Shown piece after piece: positions 3,042 to 37,737 of a DNA stretch of 39,135 bases. Made by a program: the position numbers and the translations under genes. Under the pieces are notes generated by a model, which saw only the letters and a program-made list of their open reading frames with translations, was not told the origin of the DNA and did not search any database. The stretch's first letter is position 1. The number at the start of each line of letters is the position of its first letter. Source of the DNA: a virus; IMG/VR virus record IMGVR_UViG_3300029908_000065, positions 1 through 39,135 of that record; one strand, written 5' to 3'.

Positions 3042-3713
3042 TTAAGTTGGCGCAAGTTCAATCCCCCACGATCCGTCATCCCATCCTTGAATGAAACTGT
3101 TTTGGATGTCCCATCCAAACAGCGGGCCAGTGTTAGCCGGCACGACATATTCAGTGATCCCCACACCTTCGGGCTTAAGCGGTAGGTATCCGCCCCTCAA
3201 AAGCGCGAGTGTCAGTGAGTCAAGCACAGCTCCTTGGACAATGAAAGTGTAAGTCATATTTTGATTGTCCTGAATCAAAATATTGAAGCCTGGGAAAAGC
3301 TGACTCCAAATCGTGTACGCGCCCTCCGTCGTCCCATCCCAGTGATTTGCAGCGATTCGAGCTAAAAGGAGAGTCAGGTAAACGTCATCAGGCAGACTGA
3401 CAAGAGACGTAGAGTCGTCCACGCTCTGCCATATCCCAGAATCCCAACCGACCGATGCAGCTCCATCCCAAGTGAAAAAGATTCCCGTGATGGGAACTTG
3501 TAATATTCGAGAAACCCCTACCCACTCACCGATGATATCGAGCTGATTTCCAACCGGAGGAGTAGCTAGGTCAAAAAGAGGAATCATCGAACTCATCAAC
3601 GCCTGAACCTGTACGGGCACGCCTACGCACGCTGCGATCACGGCCGCAAGGTTGGGTTGCTTTTGGTGTTCAGAAGTGAGGAGATTCTGATAATCCTGTA
3701 CTGTGTTACTCAT
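3042..3713 (-). CDS. DUF2612-type baseplate protein
   Basis: A 223-residue protein beginning [20 protein letters not shown], which matches the start of DUF2612 phage proteins, followed by [14 protein letters not shown]. These proteins sit next to baseplate J in small contractile phages and are functionally comparable to P2 tail protein I, linking the baseplate wedge to fibres. The family link is from sequence pattern; the role is by analogy. Its ATG overlaps the stop of baseplate J by 4 bp (ATGA). A terminator-like hairpin follows it. Confidence 0.85.
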
Positions 3714-5197
3714 GTGACAATCACCACGTTCGAAGCCAACGAAATAGGGATGGCGTTGAAAGCAAGGTCAATGTTTCCACTTCCAAAACCGCCGCCTGAG
3801 AGAGTTGAACCCGAAAGCGAAAGGGCGCTTGAAGACTTTGCAAGCGTGATCGCGTCGCCGGCTGGCCCTGGCTGTGCCGCCGTAACGGTGAGGATAAGCC
3901 CCGTCGTATCGAGCATGTAGGTACAAGTCACCAAGTTGACATCGGTTGAAGCGTTGAGGAAGGCAAGCAGGTTTGCGGCCGTTACTGTGTCGGATGCTCC
4001 GATTTTGACTTGGTTCCCGGTTGGCGTTCCGGACACAAACGTGATGGCAGTGCCCGCGATCGTAAGCGTGTCGCTGTTTGCCGGATTTGAGCCGAAGGTA
4101 ACGGTAGCGTCTGCGCACTCGGCAAGCTCAATCGAATCGACAAGGAACGTGCCAGCTTGAGGAGTACCGTAGAGATAGGCCGCCGCATAGAGCTGAGTGA
4201 TGATCACGCTACCACCGATTGGATAAGCTTCGATCGCTGCCGCGACGGCCGCCTGAATAAGCGCTTCCGTGCTTGTGACCCAGCCCGTTCCCGGCGTGAT
4301 AGTGACTTGAGCTGCGATCAGATTGGTGTTGGGAATAAAGAAGTTGATCGTGATCGGCATCCCGCGAGAGTCCGTGGTGGATACACTGGTAGTTCCATAC
4401 GTTTGAGTGCCGGGAGTCTTGTTTTGCTGGATGGCCGCCGCAATCGCGTTCACGCTTCCGCCCTCAACCACGAATGAAATACTGTGCGGGGGAAGGCCGT
4501 TACCATCTGTGATATCCGTGTCATTCTCATAACCGACCGCTTCGCTGACACCCGTGACATTTTGAATGGCACCTAGGGTTGCTTCAAATACCGTCTCAGC
4601 CGGAAGTGAAGTCGAGTTGATTTGTCGATCGCGTAAGGCCGCGTCCGTCTCAACGGGAGCGCCCAGAGTTGCCGCTGCCGGGTTGTTCACGGTTTGCCAA
4701 CCTTGCGTCGGCGTGAAGATGCCCGTGATAGTATTCTCAAGCGCTGCAACCGCGCCCGGCTGTGCCGCCGTTGCCGTGACAGTGATTGTGCCGCTATTTG
4801 GGATCGTCGTGGTAGGAATGATCCATTGTTGTTGAAGTGTGTCGATCGCAATCCCGCCCGTGATGAGCGTCCCGGCCGTTCCACCGATCACAACGGGCAC
4901 CGTGGAGTTTGTCGGGACAAGGCGAGAAATTCCGTTGATCTTCACCACGCGAGAAAGTCCAACTCCCTGAGCCGTGACGGGCGAAAAGGAATTATAGGTG
5001 CCGGCACCCAGAGCGGCCGTATCGTAAAGAGCTTGCGCGATGATCGCAAGAAATTGTCCATCTTGAGAGTCGTCGCCTAGATAAACGTCCGCACCATAAA
5101 TCCCTTTGTATTGTCCCGTCAACCACGAGAGAAACGCCGGATAATCTTCATAGTTGTATCCGGTTGCGTCGATCCAAACTAAGTCTGTGATGTCCAT
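3710..5197 (-). CDS. Baseplate J-like wedge protein with inserted domain
   Basis: A 495-residue protein. The N-terminal two-thirds fit the baseplate J family (Mu gp47 type): GATAxG-like regions, [13 protein letters not shown] around residues 183-195, and the alpha/beta part ending near VIITQLYAA at 331-339. This family forms the baseplate wedge. Residues about 364-470 hold an extra beta-rich domain ([44 protein letters not shown]) that interrupts the C-terminus and closely resembles a domain inside this phage's sheath protein. After it the J-like C-terminus resumes ([11 protein letters not shown]). It overlaps the next gene by ATGA and starts 12 bp after the gp46-like gene. Confidence 0.88.
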
Positions 5198-6314: not shown

Positions 6315-7272
6315 TGCCGTATCCCGCCTGCACTGAGTTGAGTGGGTTAGAAGATACGTCAATCGTGAGCATTTGCAAGTTGGTGTACCACTCCGTGCCG
6401 CGCGTGTCGCCCGAGTGCTCGGCTACAAGAACGTAGTACATGCCATCATTCGAAAGAGGCACCGGGGTATTTGCCGGACTCCCAGGCTGAGAAAAATCAA
6501 TCACGAATTGCTGCACAGCCGCGTTGTCAATCTGCACACGTCCATGGCACTTGATCTTTGGGTTAAGCAGGCACTTCAGCTTAATTCCCTGGATCGTTTG
6601 TTGAGGGGCACCAATGAGGCCGCTCTTTGAAGTGAGCACCACGGCTTGATTCGGGAGATACGCCCCCTGCTTTAAGAAAACAATTTTCTCATCCTGAATT
6701 GACCACGCAAACCCATTGGTGTCGGCGATCGTCTTGATGTAGTCGCGCGCATTGCCGTACAAGACCTTGCCACGGGGGAGCTTCACTTGTGGAAGTGTCC
6801 CGATGTAGCTTGCTCCCACGCCCTGGCCACTCATGGATGCAGCAGCGGCGTTGAACTGATCGGAAGGGGATGAGCCCCCAGCGATTGCAGAGCCTACCGT
6901 TTGGGTCACGATTGCAAAATTATAGGCTTGATCCCCGTCGCCCGCGATGAGGTTGATGAAGGTATCCGTGCCACTCTCACGGCCTAGAATTGCCTGCTTG
7001 ATGTTGCCCTTGAAGATCACACCAAAGTTTCCGTCGTACCCGGCCTGCATGATGACTTGGGTGAATTCCTGCTTGATGAAGAGCGCCGTCGATTGGGCCA
7101 AATTGTACACGATGATATCGGCGACATTCGGTGTCATGTAGCCCGACTTTTTTACGGCAAACTTCACGCGCATTTGCGAAAGATCAACCGTGGTGCCACC
7201 CTTATTGGACACGAGTAACTTGAACTGCCGGCCGAATTGCTGAGCGGCATCAGTGCCCAAAAGATTACTCAT
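6307..7272 (-). CDS. Baseplate hub protein (gp44/gpD-like)
   Basis: A 321-residue protein. It starts FGRQFKLLVSNKGGTTVDLSQMRVKFAVKK, has NVADIIVYNL near residue 49, and a later segment ARDYIKTIADTNGFAWSIQDEKIVFL, all usual in baseplate hub proteins of the Mu gp44 and P2 gpD fold. The hub joins tail tube to spike. It lies between the baseplate plug and the spike gene, as in Pam3-type phages. It ends with TAG, 5 codons before another in-frame stop, so readthrough would add little. Confidence 0.82.
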   Translation of the reverse strand: MSNLLGTDAAQQFGRQFKLLVSNKGGTTVDLSQMRVKFAVKKSGYMTPNVADIIVYNLAQSTALFIKQEFTQVIMQAGYDGNFGVIFKGNIKQAILGRESGTDTFINLIAGDGDQAYNFAIVTQTVGSAIAGGSSPSDQFNAAAASMSGQGVGASYIGTLPQVKLPRGKVLYGNARDYIKTIADTNGFAWSIQDEKIVFLKQGAYLPNQAVVLTSKSGLIGAPQQTIQGIKLKCLLNPKIKCHGRVQIDNAAVQQFVIDFSQPGSPANTPVPLSNDGMYYVLVAEHSGDTRGTEWYTNLQMLTIDVSSNPLNSVQAGYGNG

Positions 7273-7612
7273 TCGTGTTCACCGTCACGAAATAGAGGTT
7301 AGAATCGACACCGAGATTGACAAGCGTTGGCACGTCGTCGGGGTCTGCCCCATTGGTGAGCACATAGATGGACCCATTGATGCCCAGGTATTCGAGCCCT
7401 GCTAGACAGTCCGTGCCCGTGATCATCGGGATGTTACTCACGATCGGGTTTTCGTTTGAGTCGGCGATGTCGAGCGCCCAGTAAGAGCAAATGTCATTCC
7501 ACTTGCTCGTGAGAGTGTAGGTCACGCCGGCCAGCAAAGTTTCAAATTGTTGGGGGATATTCACTAAGGGGAGAATGTAGGCTTGCGCGCCTGGGGTTTC
7601 AGTCGTGATCAT
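7265..7612 (-). CDS. Baseplate plug-like protein
   Basis: A 115-residue protein with the layout IPLVNIPQQFETLLAGVTYTL.SKWN, then SYWALDIADSNENPI and GTDCLAGLEYLGINGSIYVLTN. This fits the small baseplate plug family described in the cyanophage Pam3 (gp18-like) and in many small myoviruses, always between the Dit-like protein and the hub. In those phages it closes the tube end within the hub. The call is from length, layout and position. ATGA-type overlaps link it to both neighbours. Confidence 0.68.
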   Translation of the reverse strand: MITTETPGAQAYILPLVNIPQQFETLLAGVTYTLTSKWNDICSYWALDIADSNENPIVSNIPMITGTDCLAGLEYLGINGSIYVLTNGADPDDVPTLVNLGVDSNLYFVTVNTNE

Positions 7613-8148
7613 CTAATCCCCAATGCTTGGCCGCCCGTATAGAGCGCCGACTGTTTTTGGCCTACGGGTTGCGTGCTTGCGTTACTGCCCCGATTCTTAA
7701 GCTGAGACGCGGACAGAGTGCCCACGATGATCGGCACGGTGATAATCTGCTTGAAAGAGCAATTGATGGAGAGAATATTTTCAGTCTTCTTTTCCGTCGT
7801 CACCCCGAGCGCTTTGAAAAGCATCGAAGAGTAAACGCGCTTTGGGGTTGTCACGACAAACGGTGTGAAGCTGCTTTGTAGCGCAAGTAAGTTTTGATAA
7901 ATCGCGCTCAGGCTTCCGCCCGTGAAGATTGAAGTGCCAAAAAGAATTTGTATGGAAAGAACTACGGGCTTTTTGAAGGCATGATCCGAGATGGCCGCGC
8001 CTTGCTGCACGGGCTGATCAGTAATTTCAATCTCATCAATCGTATTTTCGGTGAGTGTAACGTAGCCCGAAAAGATTTGATTGGTAAGCCCGAAAGAGCG
8101 AGACGGCCCGATACCAAGTAGGGTTTCGACTTCATTGAGAATGCTCAT
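7609..8148 (-). CDS. Dit-like tail protein
   Basis: A 179-residue protein. The stretch VTLTENTIDEIEITDQPVQQGAAISDHAFKKPVVLSI is typical of the N-terminal domain of Dit-like tail initiators (ITDHPVE.GA.ISDH in relatives). The C-terminus is Ser/Gln-rich. It lies between tape measure and plug genes, as expected for a protein that connects the tail tube end to the baseplate hub. Four-base overlaps on both sides suggest coupled translation. Confidence 0.78.
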   Translation of the reverse strand: MSILNEVETLLGIGPSRSFGLTNQIFSGYVTLTENTIDEIEITDQPVQQGAAISDHAFKKPVVLSIQILFGTSIFTGGSLSAIYQNLLALQSSFTPFVVTTPKRVYSSMLFKALGVTTEKKTENILSINCSFKQIITVPIIVGTLSASQLKNRGSNASTQPVGQKQSALYTGGQALGIR

Positions 8149-9377
8149 CGAATGGCACCTCTCAAGTTACGAGTCATATCAAAGTTGACTTTGTTTTGCT
8201 CGCTCGCCACGGCCTTACCTACCGCATTGGCATCGGCCCCGCCTTGCACTAGGATATTAGTTTCCTGGCTCACCTTTTGGGTATTTCCCCCTGCATGGGG
8301 AGATACAAGCGGTTGAGGTTGTACGGCCGCATTGAGTGTGTTGGCCGCTCCCGGCCCACCAAATAACCCCTCAACCTTTCCGCCCAGGTTGCTTAGATAG
8401 TCTCCGATCCCCTTGAGATAGCCAAGTTTCACCGCTAATGCTGTAAGAAGCCCTATAAGAGCCGTCACGCCGATCACGATAAGTCCGATGGGATTAGCAT
8501 CCATCGCAACATCCCAGAGCCATTGCGCGGCCGTGGCAAGCCGAATCACCGCGATCACGGCACCGATCGCAGTCACCATAGCGGTAACGGCCGCCGCAAC
8601 TCCAAGTACCGTCTTGGTTGCTTGGCTTCCCCAGTTGAAAAAGGACTTACCGCCTTCCTGCCACACCTTGAAATCGTCATAGAGCGCAAGAATTGCGAGC
8701 AGGCCCGCAAGTAGTGCGCCGAGTGGGGTAGCGAGAAACTCCAAGTTAAGAAGCTTCCAAGCGGCAATCACGGCGATGATCTTGGTTGACCATCCAGATG
8801 TGGCTTCATCAAGTTTTTTGAAGAAATCCCAAACACGCCCAAGAATTGACCACATCCGTTCGCCAAGCTCCACGGTTGCGGAAAACGCTTTGAAGATGAA
8901 ATTGACAAATCGAGTAAGCTGCTCTTGGATTTTCGGCATGTTGGCGAAAATCTGTTTGCGAAAAATATCCATCTGCTTAGTGAGCAGGGGCAAGAACTTG
9001 ATACCGACCGATTTGTAAACGGCCTCAAGAGCGTATTTCGTTTTGGCAAGCGAGTAATTGAAAAGGATGGATTGTTGAACGGCCTTCACTAGATTGATGC
9101 CGGCCGCGCTGTAGGCGGATATCATCGCTTGCCTGAGTATGAGAAATTTGTTGATAGCCGGGGCGACAAGTCGTAGTTGATATCCTACCTCTTCAAAGCC
9201 ATCAGCCATTTTGGTGAGACTGTAAAAGATTCCAGCGGCGGCACCCTGGATAGAAACGTAAAGCGCGGTAACTTTCACGGCGGCATTGCTGATCGCTTTG
9301 TTGAACTTGGCAAGACTGGCGTCATCAACACCAAACCCAAGGCCCACCAAAAATGACTTGATCACCTCGCCGTCCAT
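8145..9377 (-). CDS. Tape measure protein
   Basis: A 410-residue helical protein with several hydrophobic segments (around residues 180-240 and 245-310, e.g. ATPLGALLAGLLAILAL and PIGLIVIGVTALIGLLTAL), which is typical of phage tape measure proteins. It begins directly after the stop of the frameshift-encoded chaperone extension (TAAATG). The family rule of about 1.5 angstrom of tail per residue predicts a short tail, near 60 nm. The ending VNFDMTRNLRGAIR resembles the C-terminus of tape measures of small myoviruses. Confidence 0.88.
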   Translation of the reverse strand: MDGEVIKSFLVGLGFGVDDASLAKFNKAISNAAVKVTALYVSIQGAAAGIFYSLTKMADGFEEVGYQLRLVAPAINKFLILRQAMISAYSAAGINLVKAVQQSILFNYSLAKTKYALEAVYKSVGIKFLPLLTKQMDIFRKQIFANMPKIQEQLTRFVNFIFKAFSATVELGERMWSILGRVWDFFKKLDEATSGWSTKIIAVIAAWKLLNLEFLATPLGALLAGLLAILALYDDFKVWQEGGKSFFNWGSQATKTVLGVAAAVTAMVTAIGAVIAVIRLATAAQWLWDVAMDANPIGLIVIGVTALIGLLTALAVKLGYLKGIGDYLSNLGGKVEGLFGGPGAANTLNAAVQPQPLVSPHAGGNTQKVSQETNILVQGGADANAVGKAVASEQNKVNFDMTRNLRGAIR

Positions 9378-10499: not shown

Positions 10500-12308
10500 T
10501 TACTGGTTAACCGCGACGTTGATTTGCGCCGTCTGGGTTGCGCCAGCGAGTTTGAAAGCCACTTGGAAAGGAACGGACTGCCGATTCTGGCGAGCCGTTT
10601 CGCTCTGGCTCGAAATCGGCGGGGCATAGATATAGTAGCCGAGCTTCAAGAACTGGCCGGTTTGCAGCGAGCCGAATCCATCCGCGTTCCACTGGCCCGG
10701 AGCGCCAAACCCATTGGTAACGAATTGCTGGCAAACACCGCTGATGGCATTCGAGTAAGTGTTAGAGCCCGAGTCCGTTTGCGGGACCTTGGTTGCCGTC
10801 GTGTAATTCGCATTGTAGACGGCCGTCTGCATCGCATTTTGAAAGGCGTTGTCACCGAACGTCTCATCAATGTAGGCCCCTCCGCAACAAATGCCATACT
10901 CGATAATGCTCGTGTCATTGTCGTACTCGACAAACACATTGCAGTTTTTGCCCTGAAGTACGGTTGCTTGCTCATTGTCCAAGTTTTCCGCCGCAACTCC
11001 CGGCATCTGCTTGTACATCAGAGTGAGGAACGTATTGTTGCCGGACAGATTCACCGTGAAAAGCCGCCCAAATATGCTCGCCGCCGCGTAGGGGTTAGTG
11101 CTGCAATAGGTGATAAACGTCTGATCATAACCCAAAGCCTGCAACTCACTGGCTAGATCGGTGTTGACCACGCTGCTCAGCACATTGGTGTTTTGAGTCG
11201 TGATCCCATACAGCCGGGTGATCACGTCCGCTTCGATGAAGGGCGCGATTTCAAGCGCATCACTCTGAGTCGGCATCACGCTAGACGCGAACTTGAGCCC
11301 ATACCAATTCGGGTCCAGGGCATCAAGCGCGACGACGGCCTGTAGGGCGCTTTCGGCCGCATAGCCAGGCACCAAGGGAAGCGCAACCGCCGCCGTGAGG
11401 CCGAGCAGGGTCGAGACATCTTGGCCCGATGCCGGCGATGTGGCATAGCCTACGCTGGACGGGTTGGTGCCGCCCGCAAGCGTGCCGCCCGAAATCGTGA
11501 TCGCCGAGCTGGATTTCGCAAGGGTGTAAGCATTGCCCGCCGTGCCCGGCGTGACGGCCGTGCAAGTGACCACGCCCGAAGCGACTGAATAGGTCATGGG
11601 AGTCAGGTCGGCGTTGCTGGATGCGGAAAGGAACGTGCACAGATTGACGGCCGTAAGCGCGGCCGACGTTCCAATCAACACCTCATTGCCAGTCGGACTA
11701 GAAGAGACAAATTCGATGGACAGGCCATTCACCGTCACCGTGTCGGTAGCGGTAGGATTGCTTCCGAAGGTGATCGTGCCCGTCGCATCCACGCCCGCGC
11801 CGGTTGTCGCGCTCGTGATTTCAAATTGCGAGCCTGTCCACACGCAGGTGCCAGCACCCGAGAGGGCAGTGGTCACGTCCGACGCAACGGCGTTCAGATT
11901 GGTAGCAGTTGAGAAATTCAAGCCCGTGATCGTGTGCGCGGTGCCATCAATCGTGATATCGAATCCGCCCGAAGTGATCGTGAGGAAATTCCCAAGGGCC
12001 GCCTGCACCGCTGACAAGAGTTGACCTTGTAGCATGGCCGCTGCCGAAGTGCGAATCCACCGGCCAACCGTGCAATTAACAGGCTGGGGGGATTGAGCAT
12101 AGTACAGCTCAGCCGCTTTGAATTCCGGCGCGTTAACACCCAAGTCCGAAGCGATACCGGACAGACTCGTATAAAACCTTTCGCGCTGTAGTCCGTTGAT
12201 GACGTTTGAGTCACCGAGGATGAGCAGAGTGTTGAAAGTTCTTCCAAGAGCCCCCGGCTGGGTCAGACTCACCGTCACATTAATCAAGCGTGATACGTCA
12301 AGAGTCAT
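10500..12308 (-). CDS. Tail sheath protein, DUF3383 type, with inserted domain
   Basis: A 602-residue protein. The N-terminus (INVTVSLTQPGALGRTFNTLLILGDS), the conserved middle (YGITTQNTNVLSS, FLTLMYKQMPGVAAENL) and the C-terminus (FGSLQTGQFLKLGYYIYAPP, ARQNRQSVPFQVAFKLAG) fit the DUF3383 contractile sheath family. Residues about 176-280 carry an extra beta-rich domain ([46 protein letters not shown]) that is also present in baseplate J. Residues 109-170 may be a further inserted module. Inserts in sheath proteins usually project outward. The protein is longer than a plain DUF3383 sheath because of these inserts. Confidence 0.92.
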   Translation of the reverse strand: MTLDVSRLINVTVSLTQPGALGRTFNTLLILGDSNVINGLQRERFYTSLSGIASDLGVNAPEFKAAELYYAQSPQPVNCTVGRWIRTSAAAMLQGQLLSAVQAALGNFLTITSGGFDITIDGTAHTITGLNFSTATNLNAVASDVTTALSGAGTCVWTGSQFEITSATTGAGVDATGTITFGSNPTATDTVTVNGLSIEFVSSSPTGNEVLIGTSAALTAVNLCTFLSASSNADLTPMTYSVASGVVTCTAVTPGTAGNAYTLAKSSSAITISGGTLAGGTNPSSVGYATSPASGQDVSTLLGLTAAVALPLVPGYAAESALQAVVALDALDPNWYGLKFASSVMPTQSDALEIAPFIEADVITRLYGITTQNTNVLSSVVNTDLASELQALGYDQTFITYCSTNPYAAASIFGRLFTVNLSGNNTFLTLMYKQMPGVAAENLDNEQATVLQGKNCNVFVEYDNDTSIIEYGICCGGAYIDETFGDNAFQNAMQTAVYNANYTTATKVPQTDSGSNTYSNAISGVCQQFVTNGFGAPGQWNADGFGSLQTGQFLKLGYYIYAPPISSQSETARQNRQSVPFQVAFKLAGATQTAQINVAVNQ

Positions 12309-28337: not shown

Positions 28338-28640
28338 TTTTTCTCCTTTTGAGGGGTAACATTGAGCCTACCCGGTAACAAAATACCCAAATACGTCTAA
28401 TTGAATATGCCCGATGTTACCCGGTTACCCCGTTTACCCCCGATTCCTACGCGCGCCTGTACGGGTACGCGCCCGCTCACGCGCGCACTACCCAACCCCT
28501 AACTACTAGATAGATACTATAAAGATCAGGGGTAACAGGGGTATCATTCACAACATTCCTGCAATTTTGCCAGGTAAAAGATGAAATTAAGGTGCTACCC
28601 CTTTGGTGTTTTTGAGGGGTAGCAAAGGGTAACACGGGTA
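28338..28640. repeat. Non-coding block with GGTAAC repeats, possible replication origin
   Basis: No convincing gene lies here. The hexamer GGTAAC, mostly as GGGGTAAC, occurs at about 28353 and 28373, in reverse at 28416 and 28424, and again at 28529 and 28627. A 19-bp direct repeat (28531-28549 and 28628-28646) differs by one base, and its second copy overlaps the primase stop. A perfect 8-bp inverted repeat GCTACCCC/GGGGTAGC lies at 28594-28623. An AT-rich stretch (28500-28525) stands next to the repeats, and GC-rich sequence at 28450-28485. Iterons plus AT-rich DNA beside the primase gene suggest an origin; an operator array is the alternative. Confidence 0.5.
28531..28549 (+). repeat. 19-bp direct repeat, copy A
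   Basis: GGTAACAGGGGTATCATTC; matches 28628-28646 with one mismatch (base 8, G versus C). Confidence 0.85.
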
Positions 28641-33580: not shown

Positions 33581-33826
33581 GTGGTAAAGAAGACTACACG
33601 TTTTGACTATGTGAAATATGATGACAAGGCTTTGCTTATTCAAGATGAGTTTAAGCAACGTGTATTTCACTTAGAGCAGGCAATCGACACCGAGTTGAGT
33701 AGTCCAAGGGCTAAGGCCATTGCGCTTACGAAACTGGAAGAGGTCTACATGTGGATTGGTAAGGCCATTCGAGATGATCAGATTATCCGAAATGATCTGA
33801 CTGAGCTGAACGAATCGAGACGATAG
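33581..33826 (+). CDS. acb2: Acb2-like anti-CBASS cyclic-nucleotide sponge
   Basis: An 81-residue protein with a GTG start at 33581. TRFDYVKYDDKALLIQDEF, then SSPRAKAIALTKLEEVYMWI and GKAIRDDQ. The pattern F.Y......I......R..AIALTKLEE..MW..KAI matches the Acb2 helical-hairpin family (relatives have REKSLALTKLEEA.MWANKAI). Known members are small hexamers that bind cyclic di- and trinucleotides and so block CBASS. Assignment is by recalled motif, not a search. It begins 3 bp after the stop of the previous gene and is followed by the structured RNA candidate. Confidence 0.72.
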   Translation: MVKKTTRFDYVKYDDKALLIQDEFKQRVFHLEQAIDTELSSPRAKAIALTKLEEVYMWIGKAIRDDQIIRNDLTELNESRR

Positions 33827-33830
33827 TTAA

Positions 33831-34002
33831 TCGAGTGGCGGCGTGGGAAGCTATGGACCGGACCCCGGTTGAGTCTTTTAAAGCTCAGGGTGTGGTAAGA
33901 GTAATCTCCACTCCATTGGAGACACGCACCGGCTTAAGTCGGAGCTTAGAAATAGGGACGCTGAATACTAAGCATGGCTGGGGTCGCATCCAGCCCACTC
34001 GA
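33831..34002 (+). ncRNA. Candidate structured RNA of unknown class
   Basis: The 190-bp gap between the Acb2-like gene and the next gene has no credible gene but many paired segments. The ends TCGAGTGG (33831-33838) and CCACTCGA (33995-34002) pair perfectly over 8 bp. Inside are GGCTGG/CCAGCC (33976-33981 and 33990-33995) with an 8-nt loop, GCTTAG/CTAAGC (33944-33949 and 33968-33973), TCTCC/GGAGA (33905-33909 and 33918-33922), ACCGG/CCGGT (33857-33861 and 33865-33869), TGAG-CTT/AAG-CTCA (33870-33887), and GCGTG/CACGC (33841-33845 and 33923-33927). A closing helix plus a neighbouring 3' hairpin gives a tRNA-like outline, but no canonical T-loop or anticodon arm was found. Confidence 0.6.
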
Positions 34003-34019
34003 CATTTTGAAAGGCAGAT

Positions 34020-34328
34020 ATGGAAAACAAGTTACCCCCAGGTGCGGGCGCTGCTCGGCCGCTACTCAACATCACGGCGGACAATCCGTTTCAGCGGCAG
34101 GCCGATGAGGCCACGGTGTTTGTCATGGCTGGATCAATGCTCAGCATGTACATCGCGCTTGCAAATGAAGATCACGATACCGTCAAGCGCGTGATGTCCG
34201 CTTTGGCCGATGTGTTTGCCAAGGACCCAACCTTTATTGAGCGGTTTAAGAAAGCTCAGCACGCCGTCATGGACAAGTACAACCAAACGGTGAAGGCCGA
34301 AGAGGATAAGAAAAAGTTGGTGCTATGA
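34020..34328 (+). CDS. Helical phage protein, unknown
   Basis: A 102-residue protein: MENKLPPGAGAARPLLNITA, then DNPFQRQADEATVFVMAGSM and helical sequence to the C-terminus (KKAQHAVMDKYNQTVKAEED). AAAGGCAG stands before ATG. No known family. It begins 17 bp after the structured RNA candidate and overlaps the next small frame as ATGA. Confidence 0.65.
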   Translation: MENKLPPGAGAARPLLNITADNPFQRQADEATVFVMAGSMLSMYIALANEDHDTVKRVMSALADVFAKDPTFIERFKKAQHAVMDKYNQTVKAEEDKKKLVL

Positions 34329-34399
34329 ATGTAACTGAGCATGAGCAAGCCATTGTAGTGATTTTAATTCTGATCATCCTATTGAGGTTGGTAAAATGA
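34325..34399 (+). CDS. 24-residue membrane peptide
   Basis: MNVTEHEQAIVVILILIILL followed by RLVK and TGA. It overlaps both neighbours as ATGA (34325-34328 and 34396-34399). Its hydrophobic core VVILILIILL is long enough for a membrane helix. The exact fit between coupled genes argues for translation; the small size leaves doubt. Confidence 0.5.
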   Translation: MNVTEHEQAIVVILILIILLRLVK

Positions 34400-34590
34400 T
34401 CGCACGCACCTGCCGACGTGGGCACCGAGTCACGGAGCAAAACAGCTACGTCTGGAAATAGAATGTGAAGACAAAGAGACGCGAGCGGATCGTGTGCGCG
34501 ACATGTTGCAAGCTTAGGGCGAAGGAACGCTACATAGCGCGAGTGCGCGCTAAGGGCAAAACGTACACACCAATGGAGTCAAGAGAATGA
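34396..34590 (+). CDS. Small zinc-binding protein with in-frame TAG
   Basis: Frame from ATG 34396: MIARTCRRGHRVTEQNSYVW, then K, TAG (34459-34461), then NVKTKRRERIVCATCCKLRA and onward to TGA at 34588. The whole frame of 65 codons starts and ends with ATGA overlaps to its neighbours. The protein, read across TAG, has C...GH (residues 6-10) and CATCC with R..Y after it, the usual pattern of small HNH-like or zinc-finger phage proteins (C..GH....N.Y......R.C..C). The second Cys pair lies after the TAG, so only the long form would bind zinc. Readthrough, suppression or substitution are possible, as for the decoration gene. Confidence 0.7.
34459..34461 (+). other. In-frame amber codon in zinc protein gene
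   Basis: Codons AAA TAG AAT GTG. It separates the first zinc ligands from the second Cys pair. The sequence TAGAATG is shared with the amber codon at 16517-16519. Confidence 0.85.
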
Positions 34591-34973
34591 GTGAAACGCA
34601 AGGGGTAAAAGATGACGCGGAAAAGAATCAATTGGACCTCCTCTCGGCAACCTGGATCGAAGGCGTGGGAAAGGTCCTTACGTTTGGAGCTAGGAAATAT
34701 GCAGCTCATAATTGGAGAAAGGGTATATCGCGTTCCCGTCTCTTGGGCGCAGCTTTCCGTCACCCTTTTGCCTACCTTAGAGGTGAAGATTGCGACGCCG
34801 AGACGGGTCTACTCCATCTTTATCATGCATCGTGTTGCTTGATGTTTGCCGCCGAGCTACACGAGACGCGGCCGGATACAGACGATCGCGTTAGGGTGAT
34901 ACTTCACAAAGATCAGACCTCACTCAACGGTGATAAGTCTATAGACCTATACAAGAGGTGTGGAGGTGAGTAG
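34587..34973 (+). CDS. dATP/dGTP diphosphohydrolase-like protein (DUF5664 type)
   Basis: A 128-residue protein: KDDAEKNQLDLLS, VGKVLTFGARKYAAHNWRKG, SRLLGAAFRHPFAYLRGED, DAETGLLHLYHASCCLMF. This pattern (FGA.KY...NW.KG, RH, GED.D.ETG..HL.HA) is the dATP/dGTP diphosphohydrolase N-terminal family, MazG-like in fold, with E and D residues for metals. Such phage enzymes change dNTP pools or protect modified-base systems. It ends with TAG, and the next gene begins within its last codons. Confidence 0.75.
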   Translation: MSETQGVKDDAEKNQLDLLSATWIEGVGKVLTFGARKYAAHNWRKGISRSRLLGAAFRHPFAYLRGEDCDAETGLLHLYHASCCLMFAAELHETRPDTDDRVRVILHKDQTSLNGDKSIDLYKRCGGE

Positions 34974-35445
34974 CCCCAAATACTATCTTGGGTTTGTCTT
35001 CGATCGCTTCGATACGGTGAATCTGCATTGCACGCACGCCTACTTTGGCACGCTCAATGCGGACAATCTGAAATTCATCACGACAACCGTGGACTACCTT
35101 TTCTACTCTCATGGACGGGGCGTCGGGCTACGCCATGCGGTGTTTGATAAGCTTGAGACATTCAAGCATCAGGATGGCGAGAGTCGCGTACTGCTCATGA
35201 AAGATCGGCTTGTGCTTCAGCCCTTTGCTCAGATTCGCGCCTATTTTGAAAGCCGCGACCTGATCAGCACAACCTATCCCTTTCGCCCACACGTCACGAT
35301 TGGTGAGCGCGATATAAAGTCCATCAGTGGGTTTTTTCATAGTTACGTCCTTGTAAAGGATGGCGAAGTGGTCAAGCGTTGGTTGCTCAGAAAAGACACG
35401 CAAGGGTACTCGGGCGTGCTGCAGGACACTTATGAAATCACCTAG
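34966..35445 (+). CDS. 2H phosphoesterase (LigT/Acb1-like)
   Basis: About 159 residues from GTG 34966, seven bases after AAGAGG; an in-frame GTG at 34960 is too close to that site. It has two HxT motifs of the 2H superfamily: LHCTHAYFG (His near residue 21) and PFRPHVTIGE (His near 109), spaced about 88 residues. 2H enzymes include RNA ligases/cyclic phosphodiesterases (ThpR/LigT) and the anti-CBASS nuclease Acb1 of T4. The size is close to Acb1 (about 150 residues). The nearby Acb2-like gene favours an anti-CBASS role, but RNA-end processing is equally consistent with the motifs. Confidence 0.75.
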   Translation: MSSPKYYLGFVFDRFDTVNLHCTHAYFGTLNADNLKFITTTVDYLFYSHGRGVGLRHAVFDKLETFKHQDGESRVLLMKDRLVLQPFAQIRAYFESRDLISTTYPFRPHVTIGERDIKSISGFFHSYVLVKDGEVVKRWLLRKDTQGYSGVLQDTYEIT

Positions 35446-37633: not shown

Positions 37634-37690
37634 AGTTTGATCGCGTGATTTGAAATCACTGCCCGTGACTTTCGTCATGTGATCAGGGAA
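37634..37690. other. Short intergenic spacer, no gene
   Basis: The short spacer between SSB and the terminator hairpin holds no open frame worth naming. Bases 37647-37675 include an inverted ATTTGAAAT-like stretch and TGATCAGG; nothing further seen. Confidence 0.5.
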
Positions 37691-37725
37691 GGCTACGCGG
37701 AATTATGAGCCCGCGTGGCCTTTTT
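37691..37725 (+). terminator. Rho-independent terminator after the SSB gene
   Basis: GGCTACGCGG (37691-37700) pairs with CCGCGTGGCC (37711-37720) over 10 bp with one G-T pair and a 10-nt loop, followed by TTTTT. It lies 57 bp after the SSB stop and directly before the polymerase ribosome-binding site. Confidence 0.85.
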
Positions 37726-37737
37726 ATTGGGGGATAG

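Follow-up and report, generated by a model that had tools for sequence, protein, structure and literature searches.

A non-coding intercistronic gap with a predicted multibranched fold, downstream of an acb2-like gene in the early operon of an uncultured tailed phage

Background

The phi29-type packaging RNA (RF00044) is similar in length to the gap analyzed here and possesses an end-to-end closing helix, while the non-coding RNA of retrons (msr-msd) is closed by end repeats, as the gap is. The ornate GOLLD and ROOL RNAs are phage-associated and multibranched, but much larger. A phage RNA related to anti-phage defence by CBASS is cabRNA, a transcript of terminase genes in staphylococcal phages that activates a CBASS cyclase; cabRNAs can differ in sequence from one phage to another (Nature 2023, PMC10686824).

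The locus compared with these systems is a gap in the early operon of an uncultured tailed phage, found in a stretch of 39,135 nucleotides (IMG/VR record IMGVR_UViG_3300029908_000065, positions 1 to 39,135), which we refer to as the window. The gap would share with cabRNA the character of a structured phage RNA tied to CBASS, its own tie being positional and its fold predicted; it differs in being intergenic and adjoining an Acb2-like gene, whereas cabRNA derives from terminase genes. Unlike phages of the phi29 type, the window phage has genes for a small terminase subunit of the Terminase_2 family and for a large terminase of the tailed-phage kind; unlike GOLLD and ROOL, the gap has no match in Rfam; unlike retrons, the window record carries no reverse transcriptase. 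A closer comparison is offered by structured intercistronic spacers or 5' leaders of phage operons, of attenuator or terminator type, two of which, one in a related viral record (L014, positions 8034-8160) and one in the window itself (37634-37737), are described below. Like these, the gap is non-coding, belongs to a polycistronic unit and has its predicted structure ending shortly before the next ribosome binding site; in contrast to them, it lacks a strong GC hairpin followed by a T run, its folding signal is much weaker, and no homologue of it was found.

Results

The gap extends from 33827 to 34019 on the + strand (193 nt, GC 52%), between the end of the acb2-like gene at 33826 and the start of the next gene at 34020, in agreement with the distance of about 190 bp reported in a preliminary description of this DNA. 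The operon had there been called otherwise gapless, which does not hold, a second non-coding and more strongly structured gap (z -5.5) being located at 37634-37737, between the ssDNA-binding protein gene and the DNA polymerase gene. This second gap contains two tandem hairpins, the latter of which has the classic shape of a terminator (AAGGCTACGCGG...CCGCGTGGCCTTTTT). In L014, a tRNA-Asn gene (10678-10753) is present in the area where the window has this terminator-like gap, with the ssDNA-binding protein gene on one side and the polymerase gene on the other.

The acb2-like gene (33581-33826, + strand) encodes 81 aa and matches the Acb2/Tad1 hairpin-domain family of cyclic-nucleotide sponges (Pfam PF24729) with 33.9 bits, above the cut-off of 27. 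Searched against the PDB, its profile retrieved Tad1 (8kbb, E 0.0011) and "Acb2 homolog 43" (9ptq, E 0.019), so that the product appears, on sequence grounds, to be a credible member of the family. Homologues were found in 12 other viral loci, at 52-81% identity. The DNA 3' of these homologues is unrelated to the gap and the element is absent, in all loci with readable downstream sequence (L009, whose record ends shortly after acb2, was left out of the comparison). The gap does not, therefore, travel with acb2, and its tie to anti-CBASS is one of position only.

The coding potential of the gap was evaluated by scoring its six frames for codon usage, trained on 41 genes of the window. None of the six exceeds the 2nd percentile of real gene segments, and all fall inside the off-frame distribution. 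A single + frame is open through the whole gap (33835-34194, with a GTG start at 33835, 119 aa); in codon usage this frame ranks at percentile 1.3 of real genes, as is typical of off-frames, and it shares 175 nt with the supported 34020 gene. No relative of this frame was found by a degenerate translated pattern scan of IMG/VR (viral_contigs) or by tblastn against phages. As far as codon usage and homology tests go, the gap is non-coding, and the earlier remark that the open frames across it do not resemble protein is borne out.

An exact 8-bp inverted repeat, formed by TCGAGTGG (33831-33838) and CCACTCGA (33995-34002), spans 172 nt of the gap, just as first noticed. Folded in isolation, this segment has a minimum free energy (MFE) of -68.3 kcal/mol; the two arms form a closing helix, P1, with 7 of the 8 possible pairs, and six further stems are predicted, where at least five had been proposed. 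A predicted P2 domain (33841-33927), in which GCGTG and CACGC enclose an interrupted hairpin (33857-33896) and a second hairpin (33905-33922), shows mean pair probabilities of 0.86-0.92 in the isolated gap. It is followed by the predicted hairpins CCGGC-TTAA-GTCGG (33929-33942), GCTTAG...CTAAGC (33944-33973) and GGCTGGG-GTCGCA-TCCAGCC (33976-33995), the last stacked directly on P1, with mean pair probabilities of 0.98, 0.99 and 0.89, respectively. P1 itself is near certain in the isolated gap; its probability is 0.33-0.39 when 40-130 nt of flanking mRNA are included on each side, and 0.83 in a context of 751 nt. Folding is stronger for the + strand (z -2.99) than for the - strand (z -1.63).

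Compared with dinucleotide shuffles, the fold of the gap has a z score of -2.99 to -3.04, and 0.6% of the shuffles fold equally well. A conserved structured RNA would be expected to have an energy well outside the genome background, and this one does not: among 454 genome tiles, mostly coding and non-optimised, 3.7% reach a z of -2.99 or lower, the lowest being -5.8. The excess comes largely from P1, since the inner 156 nt alone give a z of only -1.67 (p 0.055). The closing helix had been singled out as notable. For an 8-bp repeat near both ends, the expected frequency among shuffled gaps is 0.36%, and 0.54% of genome windows have one; yet a helix of at least 7 bp, G-U pairs allowed, closes the MFE structure of 5.9-7.3% of shuffles; such a helix together with equally low energy occurs in 0.07-0.13%. 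As the gap was picked by eye from the whole window, with limits set so as to match the helix, these statistics are only suggestive, and the advantage of the fold over chance is modest. More generally, a functional structure is not established by folding of a single sequence (Rivas 2021, PMC8250186).

Searches for known RNA classes agree with the earlier statement that none could be recognised. Rfam 15 gave no match in the whole window at the gathering threshold and, at E values up to 10, a single chance match (E 1.9), which concerns an unrelated family and lies almost entirely beyond the limits of the gap; ARAGORN reported 0 tRNA or tmRNA genes. The last hairpin and P1, considered as a tRNA-like T arm on an acceptor stem, were rejected, the stem being too long, the conserved loop bases missing and ARAGORN negative. 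RF00044 did not match either, in a search whose dedicated control set held no positive. A retron non-coding RNA was discarded, as a six-frame search with working positive controls revealed no reverse transcriptase (PF00078) in the record. No intrinsic terminator was found at the 3' end of the gap, the only, weak, match being internal (33856-33870), and no repeat families were reported in the acb2-gap region. The gap contains no promoter-like match, which is consistent with its being part of a longer mRNA.

Relatives of the gap were sought at the DNA level, by structure and through its neighbours. Neither blastn against phages, plasmids and E. coli genomes nor comparison with 16 related viral records, where the best match was of 14 bases, identified any, and a single-sequence covariance model (R1), run over 17 records, including the 16 related ones, and the collected loci, found only itself. 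Scans with the neighbouring helicase and ssDNA-binding protein led to L014, to the near-identical record L015 (one mismatch in 12.7 kb) and to L019, the lysine-rich end of the ssDNA-binding protein yielding unspecific patterns. The 34020 gene retrieved nothing alone and, as an alignment, only L014 and L015, while the neighbouring dATP/dGTP hydrolase, and all scans of genome_contigs, produced no locus. The gap sequence may be read as a lineage-specific intercistronic spacer or leader.

The gene downstream of the gap (34020-34328, + strand) encodes a protein of 102 aa, predicted to consist of three helices (AlphaFold, mean pLDDT 73.8), with a relative of 42% identity in L014. Its start codon is supported by the proteins of the window and of L014, both beginning with ME.NK, and is preceded by a probable Shine-Dalgarno sequence, GAAAG (34009-34013, + strand), recognised by direct reading and spaced from the ATG as in L014. 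Being non-coding and directly 5' of this supported start codon, the gap occupies the place of a leader.

L014 and L015 share with the window, in the same order, the helicase (54%), an acidic protein, the 34020 protein (42%), an exonuclease (57%) and the ssDNA-binding protein (74%). They are devoid of acb2, the acidic-protein gene adjoining a gap which is in turn followed by the 34020 relative. This gap (L014 8034-8160, 127 nt) is non-coding and folds into two tandem hairpins (z -6.0 to -6.44), the second being a long GC hairpin followed by TTTT; it does not correspond to any Rfam family. In both window and L014, 17 nt separate the structured part from the ATG, and GAAAG has the same spacing; yet alignment and covariance model detected no meaningful sequence similarity, and no common fold, between the two gaps. 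The syntenic region of L019 yielded no relative of the 34020 gene. Judging from these sequences, the junction is variable between relatives. Both lineages having the 34020 gene thus feature a structured spacer before it, not conserved in sequence; two cases are not enough to make this a rule. Since the element is missing beside acb2 homologues in other phages, the gap belongs either to the 34020 side or to this one junction.

Other features were observed in these sequences. A frame for a hydrophobic peptide of 24 aa (MNVTEHEQAIVVILILIILLRLVK) is located at 34325-34399, its start overlapping the stop of the 34020 gene and its stop the next start. At 34396-34590 lies a small zinc-ribbon-like gene, reading MIARTCRRGHRVTEQNSYVWK before and NVKTKRRERIVCATCC... 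after one in-frame TAG, which could be either a decayed gene or a case of readthrough; an uninterrupted protein of similar pattern is encoded in L019 (3114-3275). The same early region of L019 includes two predicted proteins with long low-complexity repeats, at 3443-4192 (SAAESAAWSAAKSA...) and 6751-7407 (YAYANTYAYAYADADAY...). Further downstream in the window, the protein encoded at 34960-35445 (161 aa) contains the H-x-T motif twice, in LHCTHAYFG and in RPHVTIG, and is weakly matched (E 0.027) by TIGR02258, a model for RNA 2',3'-cyclic phosphodiesterase. It may belong to the 2H phosphoesterases, as do the Acb1 anti-CBASS proteins; neither a PDB search nor a structure model, of poor quality, confirmed this assignment. 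Finally, a non-coding gap 3' of the Prim-Pol/VapE-domain gene (28338-28640) contains six copies of GTTACC/GGTAAC and folds with a z of -4.1; its iteron-like appearance would be compatible with a possible origin or operator.

Discussion

The reading which we favor, with a probability of about 0.5, is that the gap is an intercistronic spacer or leader whose action, if it has one, is exerted in cis on gene 34020. It would represent the untranslated 5' leader of this gene on a polycistronic early-operon mRNA, able to fold into a compact multibranched domain, with 17 nt, including the Shine-Dalgarno region, left free between this domain and the start codon. The cis function, if any, might be to uncouple translation of 34020 from that of acb2, or to affect processing or stability of the mRNA. 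The model supposes both formation of the fold inside the cell and an action on gene 34020; from their equivalent position, the gaps of the window and L014 may have a common function. Against it stand the lack of shared sequence or fold between these two gaps, a modest folding signal equalled by many coding tiles of the genome, and competition of P1 with flanking mRNA in some contexts. Among the roles suggested in the preliminary description, that of a cis leader is the only one to find support, of a circumstantial kind, in the L014 gap. As for the designation "probable structured RNA", the gap is indeed non-coding and a fold is possible, but the statistics are modest and the wording was stronger than the evidence.

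The main rival to a cis-acting leader is a spacer devoid of function, produced by mosaic recombination at the entry of acb2, in which the stems would be nothing but unselected chance pairing. This is a tentative but serious possibility: it would account for an inner part not significantly structured without P1, for genome tiles folding equally well, for about 6% of shuffles having a closing helix that reaches 7 bp, and for the absence of the gap sequence from all relatives tested, and the caution about single sequences (Rivas 2021, PMC8250186) applies here as well. It explains less readily why 193 nt should be left untranslated in a compact operon, for which this is long, why helix and low energy coincide in so few shuffles, and why a clearly structured gap is present at the equivalent place in L014.

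A discrete trans-acting RNA of a new class (decoy, ribozyme or sRNA), possibly linked to counter-defence, seems unlikely. The compact domain, the exact 8-bp closing helix at the limits of the gap, the lack of an Rfam class and the adjoining Acb2/Tad1-type gene are what such an RNA would lead one to expect, but no homologue, and hence neither conservation nor covariation, was found in the collections searched, the element is absent beside acb2 in other phages, the folding statistics are modest, and a promoter-like match is lacking, as is a terminator at the 3' end, the lone weak match being internal. Very unlikely, too, is a lineage-specific class of about 172 nt, closed by the 8-bp helix and devoted to counter-defence beside the Acb2-type sponge or to regulation of 34020.

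That a protein gene was missed or has decayed, either as the 119-aa frame from the GTG at 33835 or as a pseudogene, is highly improbable: one + frame does cross the whole gap, but with off-frame-like codon usage, no relative in viral_contigs or phages, and a 175-nt overlap with the supported 34020 gene. An element acting as DNA rather than RNA (recombination site, protein-binding site or origin) deserves hardly any credence, for, although the inverted repeat is palindromic in DNA too and the junction varies between relatives, no repeat families are reported in the region and the + strand folds better than the -.

Taken as it stands, the cis-leader candidate is an untranslated operon gap with a plausible predicted fold, of little consequence. 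Better support exists for two other structured gaps in this phage group, L014 8034-8160 and window 37634-37737, each with tandem hairpins a short distance before the following gene. If covarying relatives of the gap existed, they would define a new phage RNA class beside an anti-CBASS gene, which would be of interest because a CBASS cyclase senses phage RNA.
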